Positions 34 to 19,932 of a stretch of 23,076 nucleotides of DNA are shown here, piece after piece (the stretch's first letter is position 1; every line of letters begins with the position of its first letter). The stretch lies in the IMG/VR virus record IMGVR_UViG_3300025941_000101, positions 1-23,076 of that record. The stretch is one strand, 5' to 3'. The DNA is from a virus. Position numbers and translations under genes: made by a program. A model generated the notes under the pieces. The model did no database searches and was not told the origin of the DNA. It worked only from the letters and a program-made list of their open reading frames with translations.

Positions 34-630
34 ATGATCAAAGACCAAAAGCTGTATGACAGACTCGTTGCCCGAATCCGGATCGACGAGGCGACCGGTT
101 GCTGGCTCTGGACAGGACCGTATTGGGATAAGCGTCCATGGCCACAGAACCGTTACGGTTACATCGGGATCGACTACGACCCAGTGAAGGGCCGCTCCAG
201 AACCGTAGGTACTCACCGCGCGATGTTAATCGCGATTCACGGCCCTCTGACGTCGCAACAATGCGCTTGCCATCGTTGCGACGTGCCCTTATGCATCAAT
301 CCGGAGCATTTGTTCATCGGGACGATGGGCGATAACATTCGCGATTCGCGCAGCAAGAATCGGCATCACGAAGCACAGAAAGACTTCTGCGAGCGCGGGC
401 ATCCGTTATCTGGTGACAATCTCGCACTGCGGCGGCAGCAGCCTCCCAAGATGGGCATTCGCCGCGTCTGCAGAACATGTGAGAAGGGCCGCTACCGCCT
501 CAACCTTGGATGGCCTGAGCATCTAGCTTTCGATATGGCCTTCAGGATTCCGCATGGGTATCGGCTGGATCGAACTACCTTCCAGGTTGTATCTGCAAGG
601 GGAAACACAAATGGAGACGTTGGTAAATGA
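34..630 (+). CDS. HNH endonuclease (HNH_3-type, homing-like)
   Basis: Predicted free-standing nicking or cutting HNH nuclease, 198 aa. The N-terminus carries the usual GCWLWTG element (residues 22-28), followed by a conserved His (H61) and the HNH core CHRCDVPLCINPEHLFIGT (about 79-97, with H80, N89 and H92). Downstream DN..D residues are typical of this family. A second Cys/His set (C119, H123, C146, C149) looks like the zinc ribbon often found after the HNH core. Residues 160-198 match nothing I know. The reading frame stays open from ATG 34 back to base 1 and there is no clear Shine-Dalgarno site before ATG 34, so the true start could lie outside the window. The stop overlaps the next start (ATGA at 627-630). 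Such genes are usually mobile homing endonucleases; a packaging-associated HNH is less likely given the small-gene context. Confidence 0.85.
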   Translation: MIKDQKLYDRLVARIRIDEATGCWLWTGPYWDKRPWPQNRYGYIGIDYDPVKGRSRTVGTHRAMLIAIHGPLTSQQCACHRCDVPLCINPEHLFIGTMGDNIRDSRSKNRHHEAQKDFCERGHPLSGDNLALRRQQPPKMGIRRVCRTCEKGRYRLNLGWPEHLAFDMAFRIPHGYRLDRTTFQVVSARGNTNGDVGK

Positions 631-2393: not shown

Positions 2394-2561
2394 ATGAAAC
2401 AACCGTGCCGCTGTACTCGCTGCCGAACCTCCTTCGAGGTCACCTACGCCAAGCGTGCTGGCGTCTGGGAGGTCTATCAGAAGATCGCCGCGAAGCACGC
2501 GAGGCTCAAACCGCAGTGCGCTGATAAATGGGGTATCCAATACGTGAGGGTCCGAGCATGA
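2394..2561 (+). CDS. 55-aa Cys-rich peptide, possible zinc finger
   Basis: Read by hand: the frame opens at ATG 2394 with KQPCRCTRCRTSFEVTY, so Cys 5, 7 and 10 lie close together and a fourth Cys sits near residue 42 (PQCADKW). CxCxxC followed by a distant Cys suggests a small zinc-binding fold. The chain continues as a helix rich in Lys/Ala. There is no strong Shine-Dalgarno site. The stop overlaps the next start (ATGA at 2558-2561), which supports it being a real member of the chain. Confidence 0.5.
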   Translation: MKQPCRCTRCRTSFEVTYAKRAGVWEVYQKIAAKHARLKPQCADKWGIQYVRVRA

Positions 2562-2653
2562 TCTACGTTCCAATCTGGGCTGACATCGATGGCTACTGGG
2601 GTCCTGTCAGCTATGCAGCCACGACAATCACTTACGTCAGGATGCTCGGATAA
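2558..2653 (+). CDS. 31-aa micro-protein between coupled genes
   Basis: A 31-codon frame starting in the ATGA overlap of the preceding gene. The peptide begins MIYVPIWADIDGYWGPVSY and ends YVRMLG. It is aromatic-rich and looks protein-like rather than random. A competing frame from ATG 2589 belongs to the next gene and would make a 23-residue N-terminal extension there. I favour the micro-protein because it keeps the ATGA pattern of the whole cluster. Confidence 0.4.
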   Translation: MIYVPIWADIDGYWGPVSYAATTITYVRMLG

Positions 2654-2657
2654 CTCA

Positions 2658-2858
2658 GTGAGTGAGGTAGAGCCAAAACTGCAGCGAATCCGGGCGATCA
2701 TGGGCCGCGAACGATATCCATTTAAGAATAACAAAACGCAGCTTTTCGAGTTAGTTGACACCCGGTTTGGGTTCGACTGCTTGGCGGGGTCCCCAGGCTA
2801 CTGGAAGTACTACGATAGATACGTGGTGAACGATTCGTTCATAGGGGTACGCGGATGA
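2658..2858 (+). CDS. Small hypothetical phage protein
   Basis: 66 aa with GTG as chosen start (MSEVEPKLQRIRAIMGRE), 4 bases after the stop of the 31-aa frame. An alternative start is ATG 2589 (89 aa). The sequence has a helical N-terminus, then KNNKTQLFELVDTRFGFDC and an aromatic segment GYWKYYDRYVV. It is unrecognised. Its stop overlaps the next start (ATGA at 2855-2858). Confidence 0.5.
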   Translation: MSEVEPKLQRIRAIMGRERYPFKNNKTQLFELVDTRFGFDCLAGSPGYWKYYDRYVVNDSFIGVRG

Positions 2859-3388
2859 CAAAGGAGCGGTTACGCGCCGAGATTCGCCGGATTCTGGATG
2901 AGTGCTCGCTAGACGAGATTCGAGGCGCTTTCAAGAGTCTTTGGGAAACCACAGCGGACGAACTGAACTCGCCTCAAGCGCCGATCGCGAAGATTACCAT
3001 CAGAGAATCCGGCGCCGGCCATTACGCGCCTGATGACGTGTCGGTGAGCCTCTACGCTCCCGGCCTGCCGCCCGGCGAGCATGATGTGTACTGCGAGCCG
3101 ATGTCAGTGGCGCCTGCGTTGAAAGCTCCCATCACGGCTGAGTACATCAAGGCGCGGCTCAAAGATCCCGTCGTCCTACAGCGCCTACGCGAGCGGGAGG
3201 ATTTAAGAAAATCGCTGAAGGCTGCAACGCCTCATGAGTTGGTTGAGTATTCGCTCCACCTCTTCAAGGACCTGGGGCCACACGAGGAAATAATTATCTC
3301 TGAGCTGTATTCGAGGATCTGGCCGGGGTGGGAGCGGGCGCCGGTTGAGGGAGAGGATGCAGCGGAGAAATCGGACGGTGGTCAATGA
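2855..3388 (+). CDS. Hypothetical phage protein, 177 aa
   Basis: The largest protein of the left cluster apart from the HNH protein; the HAD protein is about the same size. Residues 1-35 are helical and charged (TKERLRAEIRRILDECSLDE). Residues 45-85 look beta-rich (AKITIRESGAGHYAPDDVSVSLYAPG), and a Pro-rich linker and helices follow to residue 160. The tail is acidic. No catalytic motif recognised. Both ends are joined to neighbours by ATGA overlaps, so it is co-translated with them. Confidence 0.6.
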   Translation: MTKERLRAEIRRILDECSLDEIRGAFKSLWETTADELNSPQAPIAKITIRESGAGHYAPDDVSVSLYAPGLPPGEHDVYCEPMSVAPALKAPITAEYIKARLKDPVVLQRLREREDLRKSLKAATPHELVEYSLHLFKDLGPHEEIIISELYSRIWPGWERAPVEGEDAAEKSDGGQ

Positions 3389-3629: not shown

Positions 3630-3827
3630 GTGCGCTATGTTCCTCGCGGTCCAAGGGATATAGAGGTGCTACAGAAGATGCGCGCGCGTATCAAAGCGCT
3701 TGAGAAGGCACTGGAGCGGGCCGTGACGAAGCATGGCCATGACTATCACTGCAGCGCCTCGCGCGGACTGGAAAGCGAATGCACGTGCGGGTGGACGGAG
3801 ATCAAGGCCATGGTGAAACGTCGATGA
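3630..3827 (+). CDS. Small coiled-coil protein with C-terminal Cys/His cluster
   Basis: 65 aa with a GTG start two bases after the previous stop. Residues 10-32 form a charged heptad-like helix (EVLQKMRARIKALEKALERA). The C-terminal part HGHDYHCSASRG...CTCGW (about 35-56) holds two or three Cys and several His. This helix-then-CxC arrangement is seen in many unnamed phage early proteins and suggests dimerisation plus a metal site. An internal ATG (3678) is a less likely start. The stop overlaps the next start. Confidence 0.55.
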   Translation: MRYVPRGPRDIEVLQKMRARIKALEKALERAVTKHGHDYHCSASRGLESECTCGWTEIKAMVKRR

Positions 3828-4351
3828 AAGTCCTGTTCCTCGACGTGGATGGCGTGCTCAACAGTCTCGAATGGTGCAAAGCTGGGAATGGCTTTGGCTG
3901 CCCTCCAGGAAAACGAGAGCGGTGTACGAAGGAGCGCTTGAAGTGGTGCCCCGACATGGTGAGGCGCCTACGGCAGGTGATTGAGGCTACTGGCGCAAGC
4001 ATCGTTGTAAGCTCCTCCTGGCGCGGCTACGGGGCTGGAGCCGTCCGCAAGTGGAAAGCTATGTTCAACGTCTATGGCTGGCGCAATGCCCCGGTGATTG
4101 GTGAGACGCCCGACTTGACGCGGCAGCAGTCCAGTGGACTCTATGTCTCAATCAAGCGTGGCGAGGAGGTAGCAGCGTGGCTGAAGGCGCATACGCATGT
4201 GGTCGATCGATTCGTATGCGTAGATGACGGGAATGACTTTTTGCCGGATCAACCTCTCGTGCTCACCGACATGGAGACGGGACTGACGGAGGACGCCGCC
4301 TTGAAATGCATCGTGTTACTCGGGAACGAAACGACATCAAAGCGTCGATGA
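3824..4351 (+). CDS. HAD-fold phosphatase-like protein (HAD_SAK-type)
   Basis: 175 aa. Motif I is intact at the N-terminus, VLFLDVDGVLNS (D7 nucleophile, D9 acid/base). Motif II is VVSSSWRG (about residues 61-68). A basic segment (SIKRGEEVAAWLKAH, about 109-123) is placed as motif III, and VCVDDGNDF (about 131-139) supplies the motif IV acidic residues. The order DxDG...SSSWR...GxEVxxWL...DDxxDF, then LVLTDMETGLT, matches the small HAD family named after its link to RNA-repair proteins. Such phage proteins may remove phosphate from nucleic-acid ends or nucleotides; the substrate here is unknown. ATG 3824 is chosen because of the ATGA overlap and because it puts motif I at residue 3, usual for the family. 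Confidence 0.8.
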   Translation: MKVLFLDVDGVLNSLEWCKAGNGFGCPPGKRERCTKERLKWCPDMVRRLRQVIEATGASIVVSSSWRGYGAGAVRKWKAMFNVYGWRNAPVIGETPDLTRQQSSGLYVSIKRGEEVAAWLKAHTHVVDRFVCVDDGNDFLPDQPLVLTDMETGLTEDAALKCIVLLGNETTSKRR

Positions 4352-4569: not shown

Positions 4570-4685
4570 GCGCACCGCAGAATGACTCAACACGGATGGG
4601 GTGATAGGGTCGAGTAGAAGAAAAAAGGAAAGGGGTTCTATGGGAAGGAAGATCTTTAGCGGGATCGCACGCGGATTGCGAATCG
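4570..4685. other. Convergent junction between the two transcription blocks
   Basis: The plus-strand cluster ends at 4569 and the minus-strand block ends at 4686. Positions 4616-4635 are an uninterrupted 20-base purine tract on the plus strand, so the minus-strand RNA would carry a C/U tract there. I see only weak hairpins nearby (GATT-GCG-AATC at 4674-4684). A terminator could not be confirmed on either strand. Confidence 0.4.
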
Positions 4686-4693
4686 CTAGCTGA
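4640..4693 (+). CDS. Possible 17-aa cationic peptide
   Basis: A 17-codon frame, MGRKIFSGIARGLRIAS, preceded by a strong purine-rich ribosome-binding region (GGAAAGGGG) four bases before the ATG. The peptide has four basic residues spaced along a hydrophobic face and no acidic ones. It lies just after the last left-block gene and slightly overlaps the convergent 48-aa gene. At this length a chance frame cannot be excluded. Confidence 0.2.
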   Translation: MGRKIFSGIARGLRIAS

Positions 4694-4832
4694 CCGGATG
4701 CCCTACAAAGATCCAATAGGCCGCCACGCAGGCAAGCCCCGCCCAGCCCAGTGAAACCCTGGGTGATGGCACGTTCAGCGCTGCCAGGACGAACAGCACG
4801 AAAGCGGCAACGAGCAGGATAAGTCCGATCAT
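4686..4832 (-). CDS. 48-aa two-pass membrane peptide (lysis block)
   Basis: Read by hand on the minus strand, 8 bases after the holin stop with AGGTG five bases before the ATG. Residues 2-20 (IGLILLVAAFVLFVLAALN) form one hydrophobic helix, and VPSPRVSLGW leads into a second (AGLACVAAYWIFVG). This two-helix plan with a PRVxLGW turn is one I know from many unnamed small phage membrane proteins near lysis genes. It could be an auxiliary holin or antiholin. It is the last minus-strand gene before the convergent junction. Confidence 0.7.
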   Translation of the reverse strand: MIGLILLVAAFVLFVLAALNVPSPRVSLGWAGLACVAAYWIFVGHPVS

Positions 4833-4840
4833 GGTTGCAC

Positions 4841-5365
4841 CTACTTTTTGACAGCAATGGTATTCAACGCGTCAGTCTTGGCTGCGCTACCAGCTGAGGA
4901 TCCGAAGTAGTAGGCAACGATGCCCGTCCAGGCCGTACCCAGCGAGCCGACCATCACGAGCATGACGTCCCCGCCGCTGACGGGCTTTCCCTCCACCACC
5001 AGATACCCCAGCACCCCGAAGAACCCCACCGTGACTAGATAGGCCATGTACCGCGGGGTTGAGTCCTTGACCGCAATCTCCCGAGCTCGAGCATTGGCGA
5101 TGTCGTCGAAGACCAGCTTGTCCTTTTCAATCCCCAGCTTCTCCAGCTGCAGCTCGAAGTCCTGATCAGCTTTCTTGAGTGCCAACAGCTGATCCGGGGT
5201 CGCTGTCAGCAATGCCGCCTCTGTCGCTTTACCGTCGTCCTTGGGCGTTCCGAGTACGGCTGAGAGGGCGGCACTGGCCAAAGGCCCGAACGGCCCTCCG
5301 ACCGCCAGGGCAACCGTGGGAGCGACTGTGCGTAGGATCTGCAGAGCTTTTTCGCCAAGTGTCAT
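4841..5365 (-). CDS. Holin, 3TM (GTA_holin_3TM-like)
   Basis: 174 aa. It makes the inner-membrane lesion that releases or activates the endolysin. Family features: an N-terminal hydrophobic/Gly-rich segment (about residues 14-38), the soluble stretch ATPDQLLALKKADQDFELQ (55-73) with a long charged helix, two C-terminal membrane helices (about 106-125 and 134-155), and the signature YYFGSSAGS (152-160) near the end. The start ATG 5365 overlaps the stop of the homing endonuclease (ATGA); an upstream in-frame ATG at 5437 lies inside that gene. It sits one gene from the endolysin, as expected for a lysis pair. Confidence 0.85.
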   Translation of the reverse strand: MTLGEKALQILRTVAPTVALAVGGPFGPLASAALSAVLGTPKDDGKATEAALLTATPDQLLALKKADQDFELQLEKLGIEKDKLVFDDIANARAREIAVKDSTPRYMAYLVTVGFFGVLGYLVVEGKPVSGGDVMLVMVGSLGTAWTGIVAYYFGSSAGSAAKTDALNTIAVKK

Positions 5366-5871
5366 AGCTGCAATCTCCGAGCGAGCACGCCAACGTGCTG
5401 GCGTGTAATGCCAAAATCTCGCGCTATCGGCAGGCATTCCTCACCTGCGTTTCTGCGCCGGGAAACTTCACGCGCCTGTTCAGGCGTCAGTTTGAATATG
5501 GGTTTTGGGGGAACCGCAGTTCCATGCCTAACGCTATCCGCATGGTTAGCCACCCTAGTATCCCAGCGTAGATTGTCCAGTCGGTTGTTATGAATGTCTC
5601 CATCGTTATGACACGCCTGATGATGGGAAGACGGCCTCATTCCTTTGAAAGTCTCAAGAACGAGCAAATGCACTTTTCTGTCGGTGCGAACCGCATCTTT
5701 GTATAGCCCGACCTTGGGACGTCCGTCGATGCCATCAGCCCGTCTTTTTAGAATGACTCCACCTCTTATTCCATGAGGCGTCATGCGAGGGAGACTCCGT
5801 ACGCGACCCAAATCGCTAACTTCGTAGAGAGTTTCGAAGGATTTAATCGGGCACCAACTTTCTGATTTCAT
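5362..5871 (-). CDS. NUMOD4/HNH homing endonuclease
   Basis: 169 aa from ATG 5871. Domains in order: NUMOD4 at about residues 6-45 (WCPIKSFETLYEVSDLGRVR), an HNH motif at about 67-106 (VHLLVLETF, then CHNDGDIHNNRLDNLRW), and a helix-turn-helix-like DNA-binding tail at about 127-169 (LTPEQAREVSRRRNAGEE and FGITRQHVGVLARR). It is a free-standing homing endonuclease that likely cuts uninfected or related phage DNA to spread itself. It sits between endolysin and holin. An in-frame ATG at 5910 would overlap the endolysin, but 5871 places NUMOD4 at its usual position. Both junctions use ATGA, so the lysis genes remain translationally coupled. Confidence 0.85.
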   Translation of the reverse strand: MKSESWCPIKSFETLYEVSDLGRVRSLPRMTPHGIRGGVILKRRADGIDGRPKVGLYKDAVRTDRKVHLLVLETFKGMRPSSHHQACHNDGDIHNNRLDNLRWDTRVANHADSVRHGTAVPPKPIFKLTPEQAREVSRRRNAGEECLPIARDFGITRQHVGVLARRLQL

Positions 5872-5897
5872 GTTGGTATTGTAACCCCGATGTTCAT
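5868..5897 (-). other. 9-codon mini-cistron bridging endolysin and homing endonuclease
   Basis: A frame MNIGVTIPT begins in the ATGA that ends the endolysin (5894) and stops in the ATGA that starts the homing endonuclease (5871). It could hand ribosomes from one gene to the other. It is probably a scar of the insertion rather than a functional peptide. Confidence 0.35.
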
Positions 5898-6244
5898 TTG
5901 ACCCCGCCATAGCTAAGACTGAAGTGGTCTGCGTCCACGCTCTTAAAGTCCCCGCCGAAAGCGCAGTCTGGGTCTAACGTCTTCCAGAAGTCCCCCAGAA
6001 ACTTATACGCGTCCGGAGCCGTCAGGTATACGCCATCCTTGAATAGCTGCAGGTCCACGGCCAGGCGCTGCGTGTGCAGACTGTTACCGATGCCTGAGCC
6101 CTTCTTCGCATTGAGGGCGGCTTGTTCGGGCGTACGATAGAGCTCGCCGGCGGTCAGCTCGAATCCTTGCGCATAGGCGAAGTCGATCAGTTTGGCGACG
6201 AGCGGGAGGAATCGACGTTGTCTCTCCCCAAGCGTTTCGCTCAT
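5894..6244 (-). CDS. Endolysin, M15 family D-Ala-D-Ala/L-Ala-D-Glu peptidase
   Basis: 116 aa. It cleaves peptidoglycan cross-link or stem peptides in the periplasm after holin action. The chain begins ERQRRFLPLVAKLIDFAYAQ, typical of small phage M15 enzymes. ELYRTPEQAALNAKKG (about 34-49) precedes the zinc site SLHTQRLAVDL, in which H57 and D64 are ligands. DADHFSL supplies the third ligand H107 with the catalytic acidic residue just before it. Length is slightly short but complete for the group. There is no signal peptide, so export depends on the holin. The start overlaps the preceding 44-aa gene (ATGA). Confidence 0.9.
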   Translation of the reverse strand: MSETLGERQRRFLPLVAKLIDFAYAQGFELTAGELYRTPEQAALNAKKGSGIGNSLHTQRLAVDLQLFKDGVYLTAPDAYKFLGDFWKTLDPDCAFGGDFKSVDADHFSLSYGGVK

Positions 6245-6375
6245 TTCTTCTTCTCAGGTGGCGGCGGCAAAGGTTTGTCGTGCGGCCAGGAATGCGGTGG
6301 TAACCAGGGTTTGGGCTCTTCGGTTTTGCCCCGCGCATCGCGCCACAGCTCCTTGATCGCCTCCCACCAGCTCAT
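6241..6375 (-). CDS. 44-aa Trp/Pro-rich peptide
   Basis: Read by hand. It starts in an ATGA overlap with the gene before it and ends in an ATGA overlap with the endolysin start. The peptide opens MSWWEAIKELWRDARGK, continues with a Trp/Pro segment (EPKPWLPPHSWPHDKP) and ends in PPPPEKKK. There is no Cys, so it is not a lipoprotein spanin. Its position directly before the endolysin suggests a lysis role, but no family is known to me. Confidence 0.65.
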   Translation of the reverse strand: MSWWEAIKELWRDARGKTEEPKPWLPPHSWPHDKPLPPPPEKKK

Positions 6376-6566
6376 GACGGATTCGCCTTCTCGCTCGCCT
6401 TCCCCTCAGTGATGCCGAGTTGCTTGGCAATCGCCTCATTGCGCGTGGAGATAGAATTCGTGTTCTTCTCCAGTCGCCGGATATTGAACACGTTGTACAT
6501 CTGGCCGATGGCCGTGAGCAGCGTGCCACACGAGGTGATCACCAAAGCAACTTCGGTACCGGTCAT
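6372..6566 (-). CDS. 64-aa single-pass membrane protein, possible holin/antiholin
   Basis: The start ATG 6566 directly follows the previous stop (TGACATG); the longer in-frame start at 6662 lies inside the upstream gene. Residues 4-24 (TEVALVITSCGTLLTAIGQMY) form a membrane helix. A charged helix follows (IRRLEKNTNSISTRNE), and the tail is soluble. This short TM plus LEKNTNS-type helix is common in phage lysis regions. Which partner it regulates is not visible. Confidence 0.65.
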   Translation of the reverse strand: MTGTEVALVITSCGTLLTAIGQMYNVFNIRRLEKNTNSISTRNEAIAKQLGITEGKASEKANPS

Positions 6567-6567
6567 G

Positions 6568-6762
6568 TCAGCAGTGCGCATGCGCCCAGTGGAAGGCCGC
6601 AAACGCGAGGCAGTCCTCATTCTCGGTCCACGCGCTCGTATCCTTGGCGAGGATGGGATCAACCTCAGCTCGCGTGTCGGCTGGCAATGCCCCGTGCACC
6701 ACAGGATTGCTCAATGCCTGTTTGATCGCATCTCGAATGATGATATGTCCGCCGCCACTCAT
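6568..6762 (-). CDS. 64-aa hypothetical protein in lysis block
   Basis: An AGGAG site lies 8 bases before ATG 6762, which follows the previous stop as TGACATG. The sequence has a Gly-rich start (MSGGGHIIIRDAIKQAL), a central polar part (PADTRAEVDPILAKD) and a His/Ala-rich end (AFAAFHWAHAHC). No transmembrane run of full length is present. Unrecognised; soluble and probably cytoplasmic. Confidence 0.65.
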   Translation of the reverse strand: MSGGGHIIIRDAIKQALSNPVVHGALPADTRAEVDPILAKDTSAWTENEDCLAFAAFHWAHAHC

Positions 6763-6763
6763 G

Positions 6764-7081
6764 TCACTTCTCCTTCACTGCCTTTTGCAGGCCATAAGCT
6801 TGGATGAGATCGTGGTCCGCCTTCACTTGCGCCGCAAGATCAGCGAACCGCCCGTTGATGAACGTGTTGTCGTCGTACCGGTCCAGATCAACCGTCTGCT
6901 CCGTATGACGAAGCTGCATGTAGAGAGTAACATTGACGAGAATCGACAGCGCCAAAAGGATGGCAGTTCCCAACTGCCACGGATCTTTCGGCAGCGTGAA
7001 CCGATTGACATTGACATGAGAGCTGGGGTGAGCCGTGATCGACTCATCCGGGGACTCCTGATTAGAACCAATGCGCGTCAT
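6764..7081 (-). CDS. 105-aa single-pass membrane protein
   Basis: The start ATG 7081 overlaps the stop of the upstream gene (ATGA); an in-frame start at 7231 would lie inside that gene and adds a non-protein-like Arg/Asp-rich extension. A polar N-terminus (1-30) precedes one membrane helix (about 36-55, LGTAILLALSILVNVTLYM), then a helical domain (HTEQTVDLDRYDDNTFINGR and AAQVKADHDLIQAYG). Topology would fit an antiholin, a spanin-like envelope protein or a virion-associated membrane protein. No family assigned. Confidence 0.65.
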   Translation of the reverse strand: MTRIGSNQESPDESITAHPSSHVNVNRFTLPKDPWQLGTAILLALSILVNVTLYMQLRHTEQTVDLDRYDDNTFINGRFADLAAQVKADHDLIQAYGLQKAVKEK

Positions 7082-7530
7082 GGCCACAGTTTGTGCTCGA
7101 TGTTCGAGATTCGGCGCTCGAAGCCGTCCATCCGCTCGCTCATCGCCTTCTGGTTGGCGTACATCACGATCAGGCCCGTGATTCCGATCACGATCAGCGT
7201 TCCCAGCATCGTCATCACCCAGTTGCGCCACTGTGGACTACTCCCGTTTCCGCCTTCCTGATAGCCGCCTTGAATCTCAACCGTTGCGCGCACTGTATTG
7301 CGTACGAGTTCACGCAAGCTCTCCTTATCGGCTGCCTCATAATCCCTGGGTCCCCGATCACTCCAATGGGCCATTTTGGCCTTCCACTCGCCGAACAACT
7401 CCGTTGCGCGGTGCAGAACGCCATCAATCCTTAGCCACATTTCCGCTTGTTTGGTTATGGTCTTTTTGGCATGGCTCTCCAGGTTATCTTCAGTGTCGGG
7501 AAATGATCCTTCCGCAGCCCCCATTTCCAT
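7078..7530 (-). CDS. 150-aa membrane-anchored coiled-coil protein
   Basis: An AAGGA site sits 6 bases before ATG 7530, and the gene follows the tailspike stop by 12 bases. The N-terminal 100 residues are soluble and helical with conserved-looking charged stretches (DKESLRELVRNTVRATVE). One membrane helix is at about 103-124 (NWVMTMLGTLIVIGITGLIV), followed by a short amphipathic coiled coil (SERMDGFERRISNIEHKLW). It could help lysis or anchor another factor to the membrane. Function unknown. Confidence 0.65.
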   Translation of the reverse strand: MEMGAAEGSFPDTEDNLESHAKKTITKQAEMWLRIDGVLHRATELFGEWKAKMAHWSDRGPRDYEAADKESLRELVRNTVRATVEIQGGYQEGGNGSSPQWRNWVMTMLGTLIVIGITGLIVMYANQKAMSERMDGFERRISNIEHKLWP

Positions 7531-7542
7531 GATGTTCCTTGG

Positions 7543-9450
7543 TTATGTTCCGAGGCCAAAGCAGATGAAGGTGATAAAGCCGTTATCCGTCGGGGTCGCG
7601 ACCATCGCGCCCGCCGAGACACTCAGAACCTCCACGATGAACTGCGCAAACCCAGTGGCAGGACCTGCATTGTTGATGCTGTAGGCAGTCAGCCCAGCGG
7701 TCGTCACCGCGATGGCCTGTGAGTTACTCGCCAGGAGCGCGTTCTCGAAGTTCACCGAATAGTTGCCGGCTGAATTGCGCGTCACCGACTTGACGTTGAA
7801 ACCGTTGTTGGGCGCATTCGTTCCAGTCTTGGTCCCATCGAACGTACACCAGGCACTGGCCGTATTGGGCGCACTGATCCCCCGGTTGGCCGGGGTCGTC
7901 ACTATACCGCCTGAGGCATAGGCCGAGAAGCCACTGGAGTTGATGTTGACCGTGGCCGTCCACGCGCCTGTGGAGCCTCCAATCGCAGACACCGTTCCCC
8001 GCAGACCATTGATCTGCGTCATACCGACCACACCCGAAAAGTTCAGCAGCGAGCCGACAAACACCGGATTGGATCCAGCGGCGGAATTGAGAGTCACCAC
8101 GGCACTGGCCGCCTGCGTGATGCCGCTGATTGAATAGGCATTGCCTGGGCCGATCTGCAGGAACGGGATATCGACCGAGGCCGGGGTTCCCAGACCGCCT
8201 ACCCGATTGTCCTTGATGAAATTGGTCGCACTGCCCCGACGACAACCAATCATGGTGAGTGAACCACGAAAGGTCGCGGCAATCTCCACGAGGTTCGTGA
8301 CTGTATTAGCGGCCGCGCAATTGATCATCACATGCGTGCCGATCCCATCCAGATATAAGCCGGTCGTGCACTGCTCAAAGTGCACTTTCTCTAAGATGCT
8401 GGAGTCGTACACGATATCGATGCCGCGCGGCAGAAAATTCCCCGCGCCACCGGCAATGACTCCACGGCGAATATCGAGCACACAGTTACCGACCGAGGAG
8501 ATTTGCTCAACTTTGATCCCAGCTGCGGGGGTGATGGTATCGGAGCCGTAAACTTCGATATCTTCATGCGGCAGGATGTCCGCGCCGCCTGATATCGAAT
8601 AGCCTGCATTGGTATAGAGAATGCCGTAGGTCGTAAATTGATAGATAAGACAGCGCCGTGGACCGCTGTTGTTCTGCCAGGCATCCGATTGAATCGCCCC
8701 CAACCCAGCCACGTTATTGCAGTCAACCGTCAGGCTCTCCAGAATCGAATCGAACATGCTGAAAGGCGCATTATTCGCGCGCAGCATGAACGGGTAGGTT
8801 CCTGAGTTCCAACCCGTCACCGCTCGCAGGATCGATCCGTTTTTGTTGGTGCCAAGGAATCGCACATCATTGGGCAGCGTGACCTCGGAAGTCAGTACAG
8901 CCGTGCCCAGCGGCAGATCTACGACATTGCCGACCGCACCATGAACGTTCTGCTTGGCGACTAGAATGCTTTGATTGAGGGCTGCCGTATCATCGGTGGC
9001 GTTATCAAACTTCGCGCCATAGCGGGCCGGTTGGATCGATGGATAGGCGTAATTGGTGGGCGTCACTCCAGCCTGTTGCTCGGATGCCGTGATCGGATTG
9101 AGCACGGGCTGCAATAGAGCCAACTGGCCCGCAGCATTGAAGCCGGCGTTGTAGGGGTCTATCGTGCCGTTGGGACCGGAGACGATCGCCCCAGGGATGC
9201 TTGGGTTGTTGGCGTCGGGATATTGTAAAACAGCCTTATACGCCGGCAGTGCATCGTCCAGCCAGATTGCAGGCCAGACCCCATTGCCGTCCGCCTGGAC
9301 CGGATTGGCGAGCGGGATGGTGAGGGTGAATTCACTCCAGATAGGCTGTAAGGTAGAGGTCCCGGTTTTAAAAAAACTGAGGAAGGCTCCTGGAATCGGG
9401 TTATTGGCCTGATCGGCAGCGCGTAGATAGGGGGAGAACAGAATAGCCAT
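7543..9450 (-). CDS. Tailspike, right-handed beta-helix receptor-binding protein
   Basis: 635 aa, the adsorption protein on the short tail. Residues 1-100 form a particle-binding head (YLRAADQANNPIPGAFLSFF, then GNGVWPAIWLDDALPAYK). The beta-helix begins at about 140 with the pectate-lyase-type signature RYGAKFDNATDDTAALN and runs to about 430 with many short parallel-strand turns. Residues about 430-510 (ISGITQAASAVVTLNSA, then GMTQINGL) look like the insertion module common in phage fibres. The final 110 residues (AWCTFDGTKTG, FNVKSVTRNSAGNYSVNFE) match the C-terminal distal domain shared by many phage fibres. It probably binds, and may degrade, a host surface glycan; no catalytic pair could be identified. 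AGGG precedes the ATG. Confidence 0.85.
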   Translation of the reverse strand: MAILFSPYLRAADQANNPIPGAFLSFFKTGTSTLQPIWSEFTLTIPLANPVQADGNGVWPAIWLDDALPAYKAVLQYPDANNPSIPGAIVSGPNGTIDPYNAGFNAAGQLALLQPVLNPITASEQQAGVTPTNYAYPSIQPARYGAKFDNATDDTAALNQSILVAKQNVHGAVGNVVDLPLGTAVLTSEVTLPNDVRFLGTNKNGSILRAVTGWNSGTYPFMLRANNAPFSMFDSILESLTVDCNNVAGLGAIQSDAWQNNSGPRRCLIYQFTTYGILYTNAGYSISGGADILPHEDIEVYGSDTITPAAGIKVEQISSVGNCVLDIRRGVIAGGAGNFLPRGIDIVYDSSILEKVHFEQCTTGLYLDGIGTHVMINCAAANTVTNLVEIAATFRGSLTMIGCRRGSATNFIKDNRVGGLGTPASVDIPFLQIGPGNAYSISGITQAASAVVTLNSAAGSNPVFVGSLLNFSGVVGMTQINGLRGTVSAIGGSTGAWTATVNINSSGFSAYASGGIVTTPANRGISAPNTASAWCTFDGTKTGTNAPNNGFNVKSVTRNSAGNYSVNFENALLASNSQAIAVTTAGLTAYSINNAGPATGFAQFIVEVLSVSAGAMVATPTDNGFITFICFGLGT

Positions 9451-18975: not shown

Positions 18976-19932
18976 CTAGTCCAATGCCGTGAGAATCAAT
19001 ACGAGCGCTTCTTCGTCGTCTCGTTCTGCCTGCTCGCGCATCAGAAATTCAATTTCACGATCGATCCGCGCACTCAGTGCTGCGGGCGCCTCGCCCAGTG
19101 TTTGGGCGAGCGTCGTAAAGTCGGGAACCTTGTCGATGACCGCTTGCGGCGGTGCCCGCTCAAAGCTAGCCGGCGAGATGAAGACCGGCGCGGGTAGCTC
19201 TAGTAAGCCTTGTTTGCGGCGCTTCTTGCGGCGGTAGAACCCTTCTGCAATGCGCGGACTATCGACTGGGCCAGGCTGTGCACTGAATGGCTGATCGAGC
19301 GTGCCGAATGCATCGAATAGCATTCCCGCGATGCCAGCCAACGTGCCGGAGGCTGTCAGGGTGCCAGAGGCATTCAGCGTGATCGCGGTCGTGCCGCTGA
19401 TGGATCCCGAAGGCACATCGGCGGTTGCACTGGCGCCGAAGACGAGCGCCGAGAGTCCGGCGAGTGCGCCCGATCCCGTCAGCGTTGCGCTCTGCCCGAA
19501 GACAAGCGCGGAGGAACTCGCTAAGGCGCCGGTACCCGTCAATGCGCCAGTCTGTCCGAACGTCAGGGCACTCGAGCCCGCGAGCACTCCGCTGCCCGTG
19601 AGCGTACCCGTCTGACCGAATACGAGGGCCGCAGAGCCCGCGAGGACGCCGGCGCCTGTGATCGCCCCAGATTGGCCGAAGATCAGTGCCGCGGAGCCGC
19701 TGAGTGCTCCCGCGCCCGTAATCGCACCGATTTGTCCAAAGACCAGACCCGCGGTCCCTGCGAGGGCGCCCGACCCGGTGAGAACTCCCGACTGGCCAAA
19801 TGTCAGCGCGGCCGTGCCGGCTAATGCTCCATCCCCGGTGAGAGTGCCGGTTTGATCGAACGCGAGGGAAGCCGTTCCCGAGATCGCACCCGAGGTCGCG
19901 GCTTCCCACTGCGACCGCAGGTCTATGAACAT
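18976..19932 (-). CDS. Tandem 20-residue repeat protein, virion-type
   Basis: 318 aa. Residues 16-175 hold eight successive 20-residue repeats with consensus LTGxGxLAGxxALxFGQxGx, then two more degenerate units up to about residue 215. The repeats are followed by a linker with RRKKRRK (about 234-240) and a helical, acidic C-terminal domain (SARIDREIEFLMREQAERDD). Repeats with Gly turns and alternating hydrophobics suggest a beta-solenoid or elongated fibre. It sits between beta-rich virion-type genes and the scaffold, so a head fibre or surface decoration is plausible. Similar Gly/Thr/Leu repeats occur in other phage virion proteins; function unproven. Confidence 0.65.
   Translation of the reverse strand: MFIDLRSQWEAATSGAISGTASLAFDQTGTLTGDGALAGTAALTFGQSGVLTGSGALAGTAGLVFGQIGAITGAGALSGSAALIFGQSGAITGAGVLAGSAALVFGQTGTLTGSGVLAGSSALTFGQTGALTGTGALASSSALVFGQSATLTGSGALAGLSALVFGASATADVPSGSISGTTAITLNASGTLTASGTLAGIAGMLFDAFGTLDQPFSAQPGPVDSPRIAEGFYRRKKRRKQGLLELPAPVFISPASFERAPPQAVIDKVPDFTTLAQTLGEAPAALSARIDREIEFLMREQAERDDEEALVLILTALD
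19288..19890 (-). repeat. 60-bp tandem repeats within coding sequence (about 10 units)
   Basis: The gene at 18976-19932 is built from units that recur every 60 bases exactly from about 19408 to 19890, with two degenerate units to about 19288. Units share the same amino acid pattern but differ at many codon positions, so they are diverged and in-frame. The register is broken once, near 19400 (residues ADVPSGS). Copy-number change by recombination between units would keep the frame. Confidence 0.85.

Follow-up and report, generated by a model that had tools for sequence, protein, structure and literature searches.

Introduction

HNH homing endonucleases of the I-HmuI type, including those of Skunavirus phages, combine a NUMOD4 domain with an HNH domain that carries a catalytic histidine and asparagine, and their genes are placed between conserved phage genes (PMC12724721). 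I-HmuI itself is encoded within an intron (PMC2988022). Free-standing HNH genes that split a phage gene are described for T4, where mobA lies in gene 39/60, and for Aeh1, where mobE lies in nrdA; the downstream part of the split gene is expressed from a new start, and the target becomes two chains (PMC2988022, PMC3014915, PMC5009743). The start codon of T4 mobE overlaps the stop codon of nrdA (UAAUGA), and low coupled translation has been proposed for this pair (PMC2988022). In ShiLan an unspliced HNH insertion leaves the host gene, a phage methylase, still readable, the hidden HNH frame being read through in frame (PMC11855218).

Here we analyse a virus contig of 23,076 bases (the window, meaning the whole stretch of DNA that was analysed), in which an HNH gene appears to have entered a holin-like gene just behind its start. 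Like the I-HmuI-type enzymes, its product has both domains with the catalytic H and N, and the gene stands between conserved phage genes; unlike I-HmuI, it is free-standing. As with mobA and Aeh1 mobE, the downstream part of the split gene has a new start, but here four codons have been lost and re-supplied, and one full-length protein is predicted rather than two chains. As in T4 mobE/nrdA and other endonuclease overlaps, the nuclease start lies on an upstream stop (PMC2988022), but a 9-codon peptide read from the old start of the interrupted gene intervenes. Whereas the ShiLan gene is read through, the gene interrupted here is restarted downstream. The Skunavirus insertions were mapped by their neighbouring core genes, and the accessible sections of that report describe no split gene with a substitute start (PMC12724721). 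In the open-access literature searched, no case was seen in which an inserted endonuclease gene removes the opening codons of its target gene and supplies them anew. The element is of a known kind, a free-standing homing-endonuclease insertion; what distinguishes it is the amputated and re-supplied start.

Organization of the lysis cassette

The minus strand of the window carries structural genes, among which head closure, major head protein and tail fibre families were recognised. The features of the lysis cassette are listed in Table 1. The upstream neighbour of the HNH gene is named endolysin because it matches phrog_1768, an endolysin family (E 6e-11); its Pfam match, Peptidase_M15_4 (E 0.016), is under the Pfam cut-off. 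The downstream neighbour matches phrog_1544, of unknown function (E 1.9e-22), and is annotated as a holin in one relative (H75, 40% identity) among the 31 phage records found, so that the name holin is less secure than the name endolysin.

A preliminary description of this DNA had stated that the endolysin stop and the holin start each lie in an ATGA, with the NUMOD4/HNH gene between them. Direct reading of the sequence proved this exact: the endolysin ends GTC AAA TGA on the minus strand, the HNH open reading frame ends CTA TGA and the holin begins ATG ACA, the ATGA being common to the last two. The mini-cistron described between the endolysin stop and the HNH start is also present, running from 5897 to 5868 as ATG AAC ATC GGG GTT ACA ATA CCA ACA TGA, nine codons and a stop. 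Within its last four bases, again ATGA, the HNH gene begins, at 5871. The HNH frame is open from 5910 as well, where an in-frame ATG lies within the endolysin; 5871 agrees better with the start of NUMOD4.

Table 1. Features of the lysis cassette and of the inserted DNA (window coordinates)
Feature	Position	Strand	Remarks
Endolysin-like gene, upstream neighbour	5894..6244	minus	116 aa, M15-type peptidase
First ATGA: endolysin stop and original holin start codon	5894..5897	minus	same ATGA in empty relatives
Original holin remnant ATGAACATCGG, codons M-N-I-G	5887..5897	minus	identical to holin start of L006, L089 and L156
9-codon mini-cistron MNIGVTIPT, from old holin start to ATGA at HNH start	5868..5897	minus	
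Inserted DNA, 532 bases	5355..5886	minus	blastn breakpoints; 2-base placement ambiguity (GG at both boundaries)
HNH endonuclease gene	5362..5871	minus	169 aa; NUMOD4, HNH_3
GGAG within 3' end of HNH gene, candidate ribosome site for re-started holin	5375..5378	minus	
Second ATGA: HNH stop and present holin start	5362..5365	minus	read directly
Substitute holin start ATGACACTTGG (M-T-L-G), 3' end of insert	5355..5365	minus	bases ATG ACA CTT GG
Holin-like gene, downstream neighbour	4841..5365	minus	174 aa

Relatives without the nuclease define the insertion point

Viral contigs, scanned twice with the proteins of the endolysin and holin genes, yielded empty relatives. A single ATGA joins the endolysin and holin, without a nuclease, in L006, L101 (the same as L007), L013, L089 and L091. 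The holin of L005 begins at the final base of the endolysin stop, several other relatives have a different gene upstream of the holin, and in two distant relatives (L020 and L022) some 0.8 kb separates the two genes. These results bear out the earlier proposal that the HNH gene is an insertion. Relatives lacking the nuclease have endolysin and holin in the same order, sharing one ATGA, with zero intergenic DNA; longer intergenic DNA or another gene order, which had been named as evidence against an insertion, was seen nowhere that the two genes stand side by side.

The breakpoints were set by blastn and not picked by hand. The two closest empty relatives, L086 (IMGVR_UViG_3300028381_000236) and L101 (IMGVR_UViG_3300005347_000063), are short metagenome contigs of 4,667 and 4,990 bases. 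Upstream, 1.3 kb of the first and 3.0 kb of the second match the window with 94-95% identity. Window 7182..5887 matched L086 with 95.3% identity at positions 1-1296 of its locus, and window 5356..4678 matched with 90.4% identity at 1295-1973, so that the two matches overlap by two bases, GG. L101 matched window 8897..5887 with 94.3% identity. In both relatives the left match passes the shared ATGA, continues for 7 more bases into the holin and ends at 5887. L006 agrees with the window at every one of the 23 bases that lead up to the breakpoint and of the 16 that follow it. From the matches to L086 and L101 and the flank identity to L006, the insert therefore runs from 5886 to 5355 and interrupts codon 4 of the holin. 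The breakpoint thus lies inside the coding sequence of a conserved gene, and the nuclease is present or absent at one site in close relatives, as is usual for a homing endonuclease. The host protein is not predicted to fall into two chains, as it does in other gene-splitting insertions; the four codons are re-supplied at the right end.

Other collections were also searched. The exact 16-mer GTCAAATGAACATCGG occurs in 10 stretches of viral contigs, of which five belong to this locus (four carriers and the closest empty relative) and five, in unrelated genes, look like chance. Scanning genome contigs with a holin alignment returned five loci, the best of which (L227) is 70% identical and is without this HNH gene. 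Plasmids gave two matches, to the endolysin only, and a DNA search of phage records gave 14 partial matches, none covering more than 80% of the query.

Within the otherwise close upstream match, the DNA of the endolysin gene shares no more than about 82% identity with L006, compared with 95% for the whole upstream match. Its 3' part occurs among the relatives in two versions, reading GRFTRADGNHF or GDFKSVDADHF. The two versions and the low local identity point to allele swapping.

A holin remnant before the insert and a substitute start at its 3' end

The 11 bases to the left of the insert are the start of an intact holin gene in empty relatives, and L156 shares this ATGAACATCGG start despite a different upstream sequence. 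At the other end, ATGACACTTGG agrees with the remnant in 7 of 11 bases and with the natural start of L148/L091 in 10 of 11, and conforms to the holin family pattern M-[NTS]-[FIL]-G. What is duplicated is the 11-base beginning of the holin, and the two copies have diverged, the left reading ATGAACATCGG and the right ATGACACTTGG. We found no phage that has this HNH gene but lacks the remnant. The table of holin starts used 24 of the 35 rows with more than 50% identity; the rows dropped were the carrier L090, three with M-S-S-F-G starts (L152, L092 and L008), and the distant L106, L163, L161, L159, L167, L160 and L164. A second count, over loci from L138 onward, was set aside as biased, since the pattern itself had been used to retrieve some of them.

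The ATGA junctions are ordinary when taken alone. Among the 35 distinct junctions of holin relatives with more than 50% identity, the upstream stop and the holin start overlap in an ATGA in at least 20, and several unrelated genes occur upstream. This is a lower bound, since the script classed junctions by the longest upstream frame and misplaced some rows (L090, L152 and L092); two further ATGA junctions were among those misplaced. In a set of 86 HNH loci an ATGA was found at the HNH stop in 15 and at the HNH start in 12, and at both in three (L234, L245 and L254). It is the sequence after the first ATGA that exceeds chance: of the 176 ATGA sites on both strands of the window, this one alone matches the holin start of a relative in full (11/11). 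The functional holin start is one of three sites with 10 of 11 bases matched.

Pairing with the 16S rRNA tail was predicted at -6.6 kcal/mol for the new holin start, -6.7 kcal/mol for the old start (in L006 and L101) and the mini-cistron, and -6.2 kcal/mol for the nuclease start. As 26% of random positions attain -5 kcal/mol or better, these energies are permissive only. RNA folding at the two junctions gave no structure beyond that of shuffled sequences (z about 0.1).

The nuclease and its carriers

The HNH protein matched NUMOD4 (E 4.5e-10) and HNH_3 (E 5.7e-6). A profile of seven homologues matched a single solved structure, PDB chain 1u3e_M, an HNH homing endonuclease, with E 1.5e-27 (8e-6 with the single sequence); we take this structure to be that of I-HmuI. 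Residues H75 and N96 of I-HmuI align with H88 and N109, both of which are invariant in the seven homologues, while the position of D74 is occupied by a cysteine, C87. The I-HmuI residues are named as in PMC12724721. With both domains and these catalytic residues in place, the insert encodes a free-standing nuclease of the I-HmuI type, which would be active in homing. It differs in composition from its surroundings: GC content is 51.6%, against 58% in the endolysin and 60% in the holin, and GC3 of the HNH gene is 48%, against 71-72% in these neighbours. A scan with the single nuclease sequence matched only contigs of this locus; remoter homologues occur in many phages.

The insertion is carried by the window and five further contigs, with the same junctions wherever these are covered. 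As all are near identical, they count as one event. The nuclease is intact in four copies (the window, L003, L085 and L083). L002 and L084, from different metagenomes, have in common two substitutions and an extra base that shifts the frame, all within the nuclease gene. L084 begins inside the nuclease gene. In L002 the HNH frame stops after 130 residues, 117 bases short of the holin, and the holin start is unchanged, so that the holin of L002 does not require strict coupling through the stop codon of the HNH gene. This suggests that the nuclease gene need not be translated in full for the holin to be expressed. Homing endonucleases are expected to decay while the host gene is retained, and an earlier report describes this for other phages (PMC2248197). 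Every carrier junction is an overlap of stop and start, which fits translational coupling, although coupling itself is predicted from the sequence.

Origin of the insertion

We consider it likely, with a probability of about 0.8, that a free-standing HNH gene of the I-HmuI type entered the lysis operon inside codon 4 of the holin, at ATGAACATCGG^CGAAAAAG (an insertion point to which the 2-base ambiguity applies), with the amputated start left behind and a substitute start supplied. The DNA shows directly where the breakpoints lie, that 11 bases of amputated holin start precede the insert, and that the inserted DNA carries at its 3' end a substitute start and a candidate ribosome site. The preliminary description had placed the insertion exactly at the 4-base ATGA, which would have been duplicated or targeted, with the mini-cistron as new linker DNA. 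The ATGA at both ends of the HNH gene, the single ATGA of the empty relatives and the appearance of the unrelated phage L254 (see below) would suit this account, but we regard it as improbable: ACATCGG, the seven bases that follow the first ATGA, is holin sequence in empty relatives, and both left blastn matches reach 5887 rather than 5894. The breakpoint is thus 7 bases beyond the ATGA, and the mini-cistron, proposed as a linker for coupling, instead begins with the amputated 5' end of the holin. Excision of the DNA from ATGA to ATGA does leave flanks that share one ATGA, as had been suggested, but the result reads M-T-L-G, whereas the closest empty relative has M-N-I-G.

The equal length of the two 11-base copies, and their resemblance in each case to a holin start, could also reflect a transposon-like target duplication, in which the right copy later drifted or was selected and M-T-L-G was not imported. 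This is unlikely, though it carries some weight. Differences from L006 affect four of the seven bases after the ATGA, compared with 57 of 514 in the remaining holin (binomial P 0.004 for at least 4/7), and no difference occurs in the next 16 bases, so that import or selection of the start is favoured over plain drift. Natural M-T starts exist (L148/L091 with 10/11 bases, L005 with 9/11), and only the GG is identical at the two breakpoints, the 11-base copies agreeing in 7/11, which is not the pattern of a transposon with a target-site duplication. That GG repeat at both boundaries would also permit the opposite polarity, in which the empty alleles are deletions of the HNH gene from a carrier and ATGAACATCGG was originally an HNH leader. 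We think this very improbable, since M-N-I-G starts are also found behind other upstream sequence (L088 and L156), M-N begins 15 of the 24 tabulated holin starts, and this HNH gene occurs in only six near-identical contigs. An intron, as in the case of I-HmuI, has a negligible chance of explaining the insert. An Rfam search of 5100-6300, even at E 5, found no intron and gave one nematode snoRNA match far below the cut-off; the HNH frame has its stop within the insert and fills most of the 532 bases, with no intron core around it, and the holin has its own start. The gene is accordingly not within an intron or intein.

If the HNH gene entered inside codon 4, the nuclease would have cut an empty allele near this codon. 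Repair might then have used little or no homology at the left end (GG) and homology within the holin at the right end, where it would have imported the M-T-L-G start from a donor. The old ribosome site and start would now translate the 9-codon peptide, which stops in the ATGA on the HNH start and may thereby give low, coupled expression of the nuclease. Translation would pass from endolysin to mini-cistron, nuclease and holin, with an ATGA at each link. The substitute start would maintain holin expression with just residues 2 and 3 altered (N-I to T-L), and the carrier should resist its own nuclease, the target being both split and recoded.

Such an arrangement shows how a selfish gene without an intron could occupy a conserved lysis gene and leave it unbroken. 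Where introns and inteins rely on splicing to mend the interruption, the mending here is done in the DNA itself, by the substitute 5' end. The old start, left behind as a scar, locates the insertion to within two bases; it also opens both the target site and the way in which self-resistance arose to direct testing. For annotation it is a warning that tiny open reading frames before such genes may be gene remnants.

Occurrence at other loci

We compared the left and right junctions of 46 HNH loci that have a gene close downstream. Their longest shared words did not exceed those of permuted pairs in length; words of at least 9 bases were shared at two of the 46 loci, and in about 3% of the permuted pairs. 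The scar is too weak to be detected blind unless empty alleles are at hand. A search for empty alleles of L245, which also has the double ATGA, returned only L245 itself. For L254 it returned seven loci including itself, of which five were examined. In this unrelated operon an HNH gene (2498..3010) lies between two copies of CCATGA, while L321 has a single CCATGACC; the nuclease would take as its start the codon at which the downstream gene formerly began. Between L254 and L321 the proteins are 39-59% identical, and L320, which is closer at 68%, has a different junction (TAA/ATG). In L322 and L325 nothing matched the upstream protein. The L254/L321 pair is therefore a lead and not a second proof.

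A tentative generalization, which we put forward with considerable doubt, is that in tight operons nucleases capture start codons: the nuclease would insert at or just behind a start, take over its ribosome site and coupled start to express itself at a low level, and re-supply from its tail both a ribosome site and a recoded start on its own stop, the recoding also removing the target. The window would be the case behind codon 4, and L254 may be that at the ATGA of another operon. At L255 (2493..3037) TGTCTGATG is found at both junctions of the HNH gene in the same register, possibly by chance.

Three further features of the window were observed. A second HNH endonuclease gene (34..630, plus strand; phrog_1492, E 8e-28) lies near the contig end, on the strand opposite to the first. 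A 318-residue protein (18976..19932, minus strand) consists mostly of repeats such as GALAGTAALTFGQ. The protein encoded at 3779..4351 (plus strand) belongs to phrog_1818, of unknown function, and begins LFLDVDGVLNS, which resembles the motif of HAD-type phosphatases.
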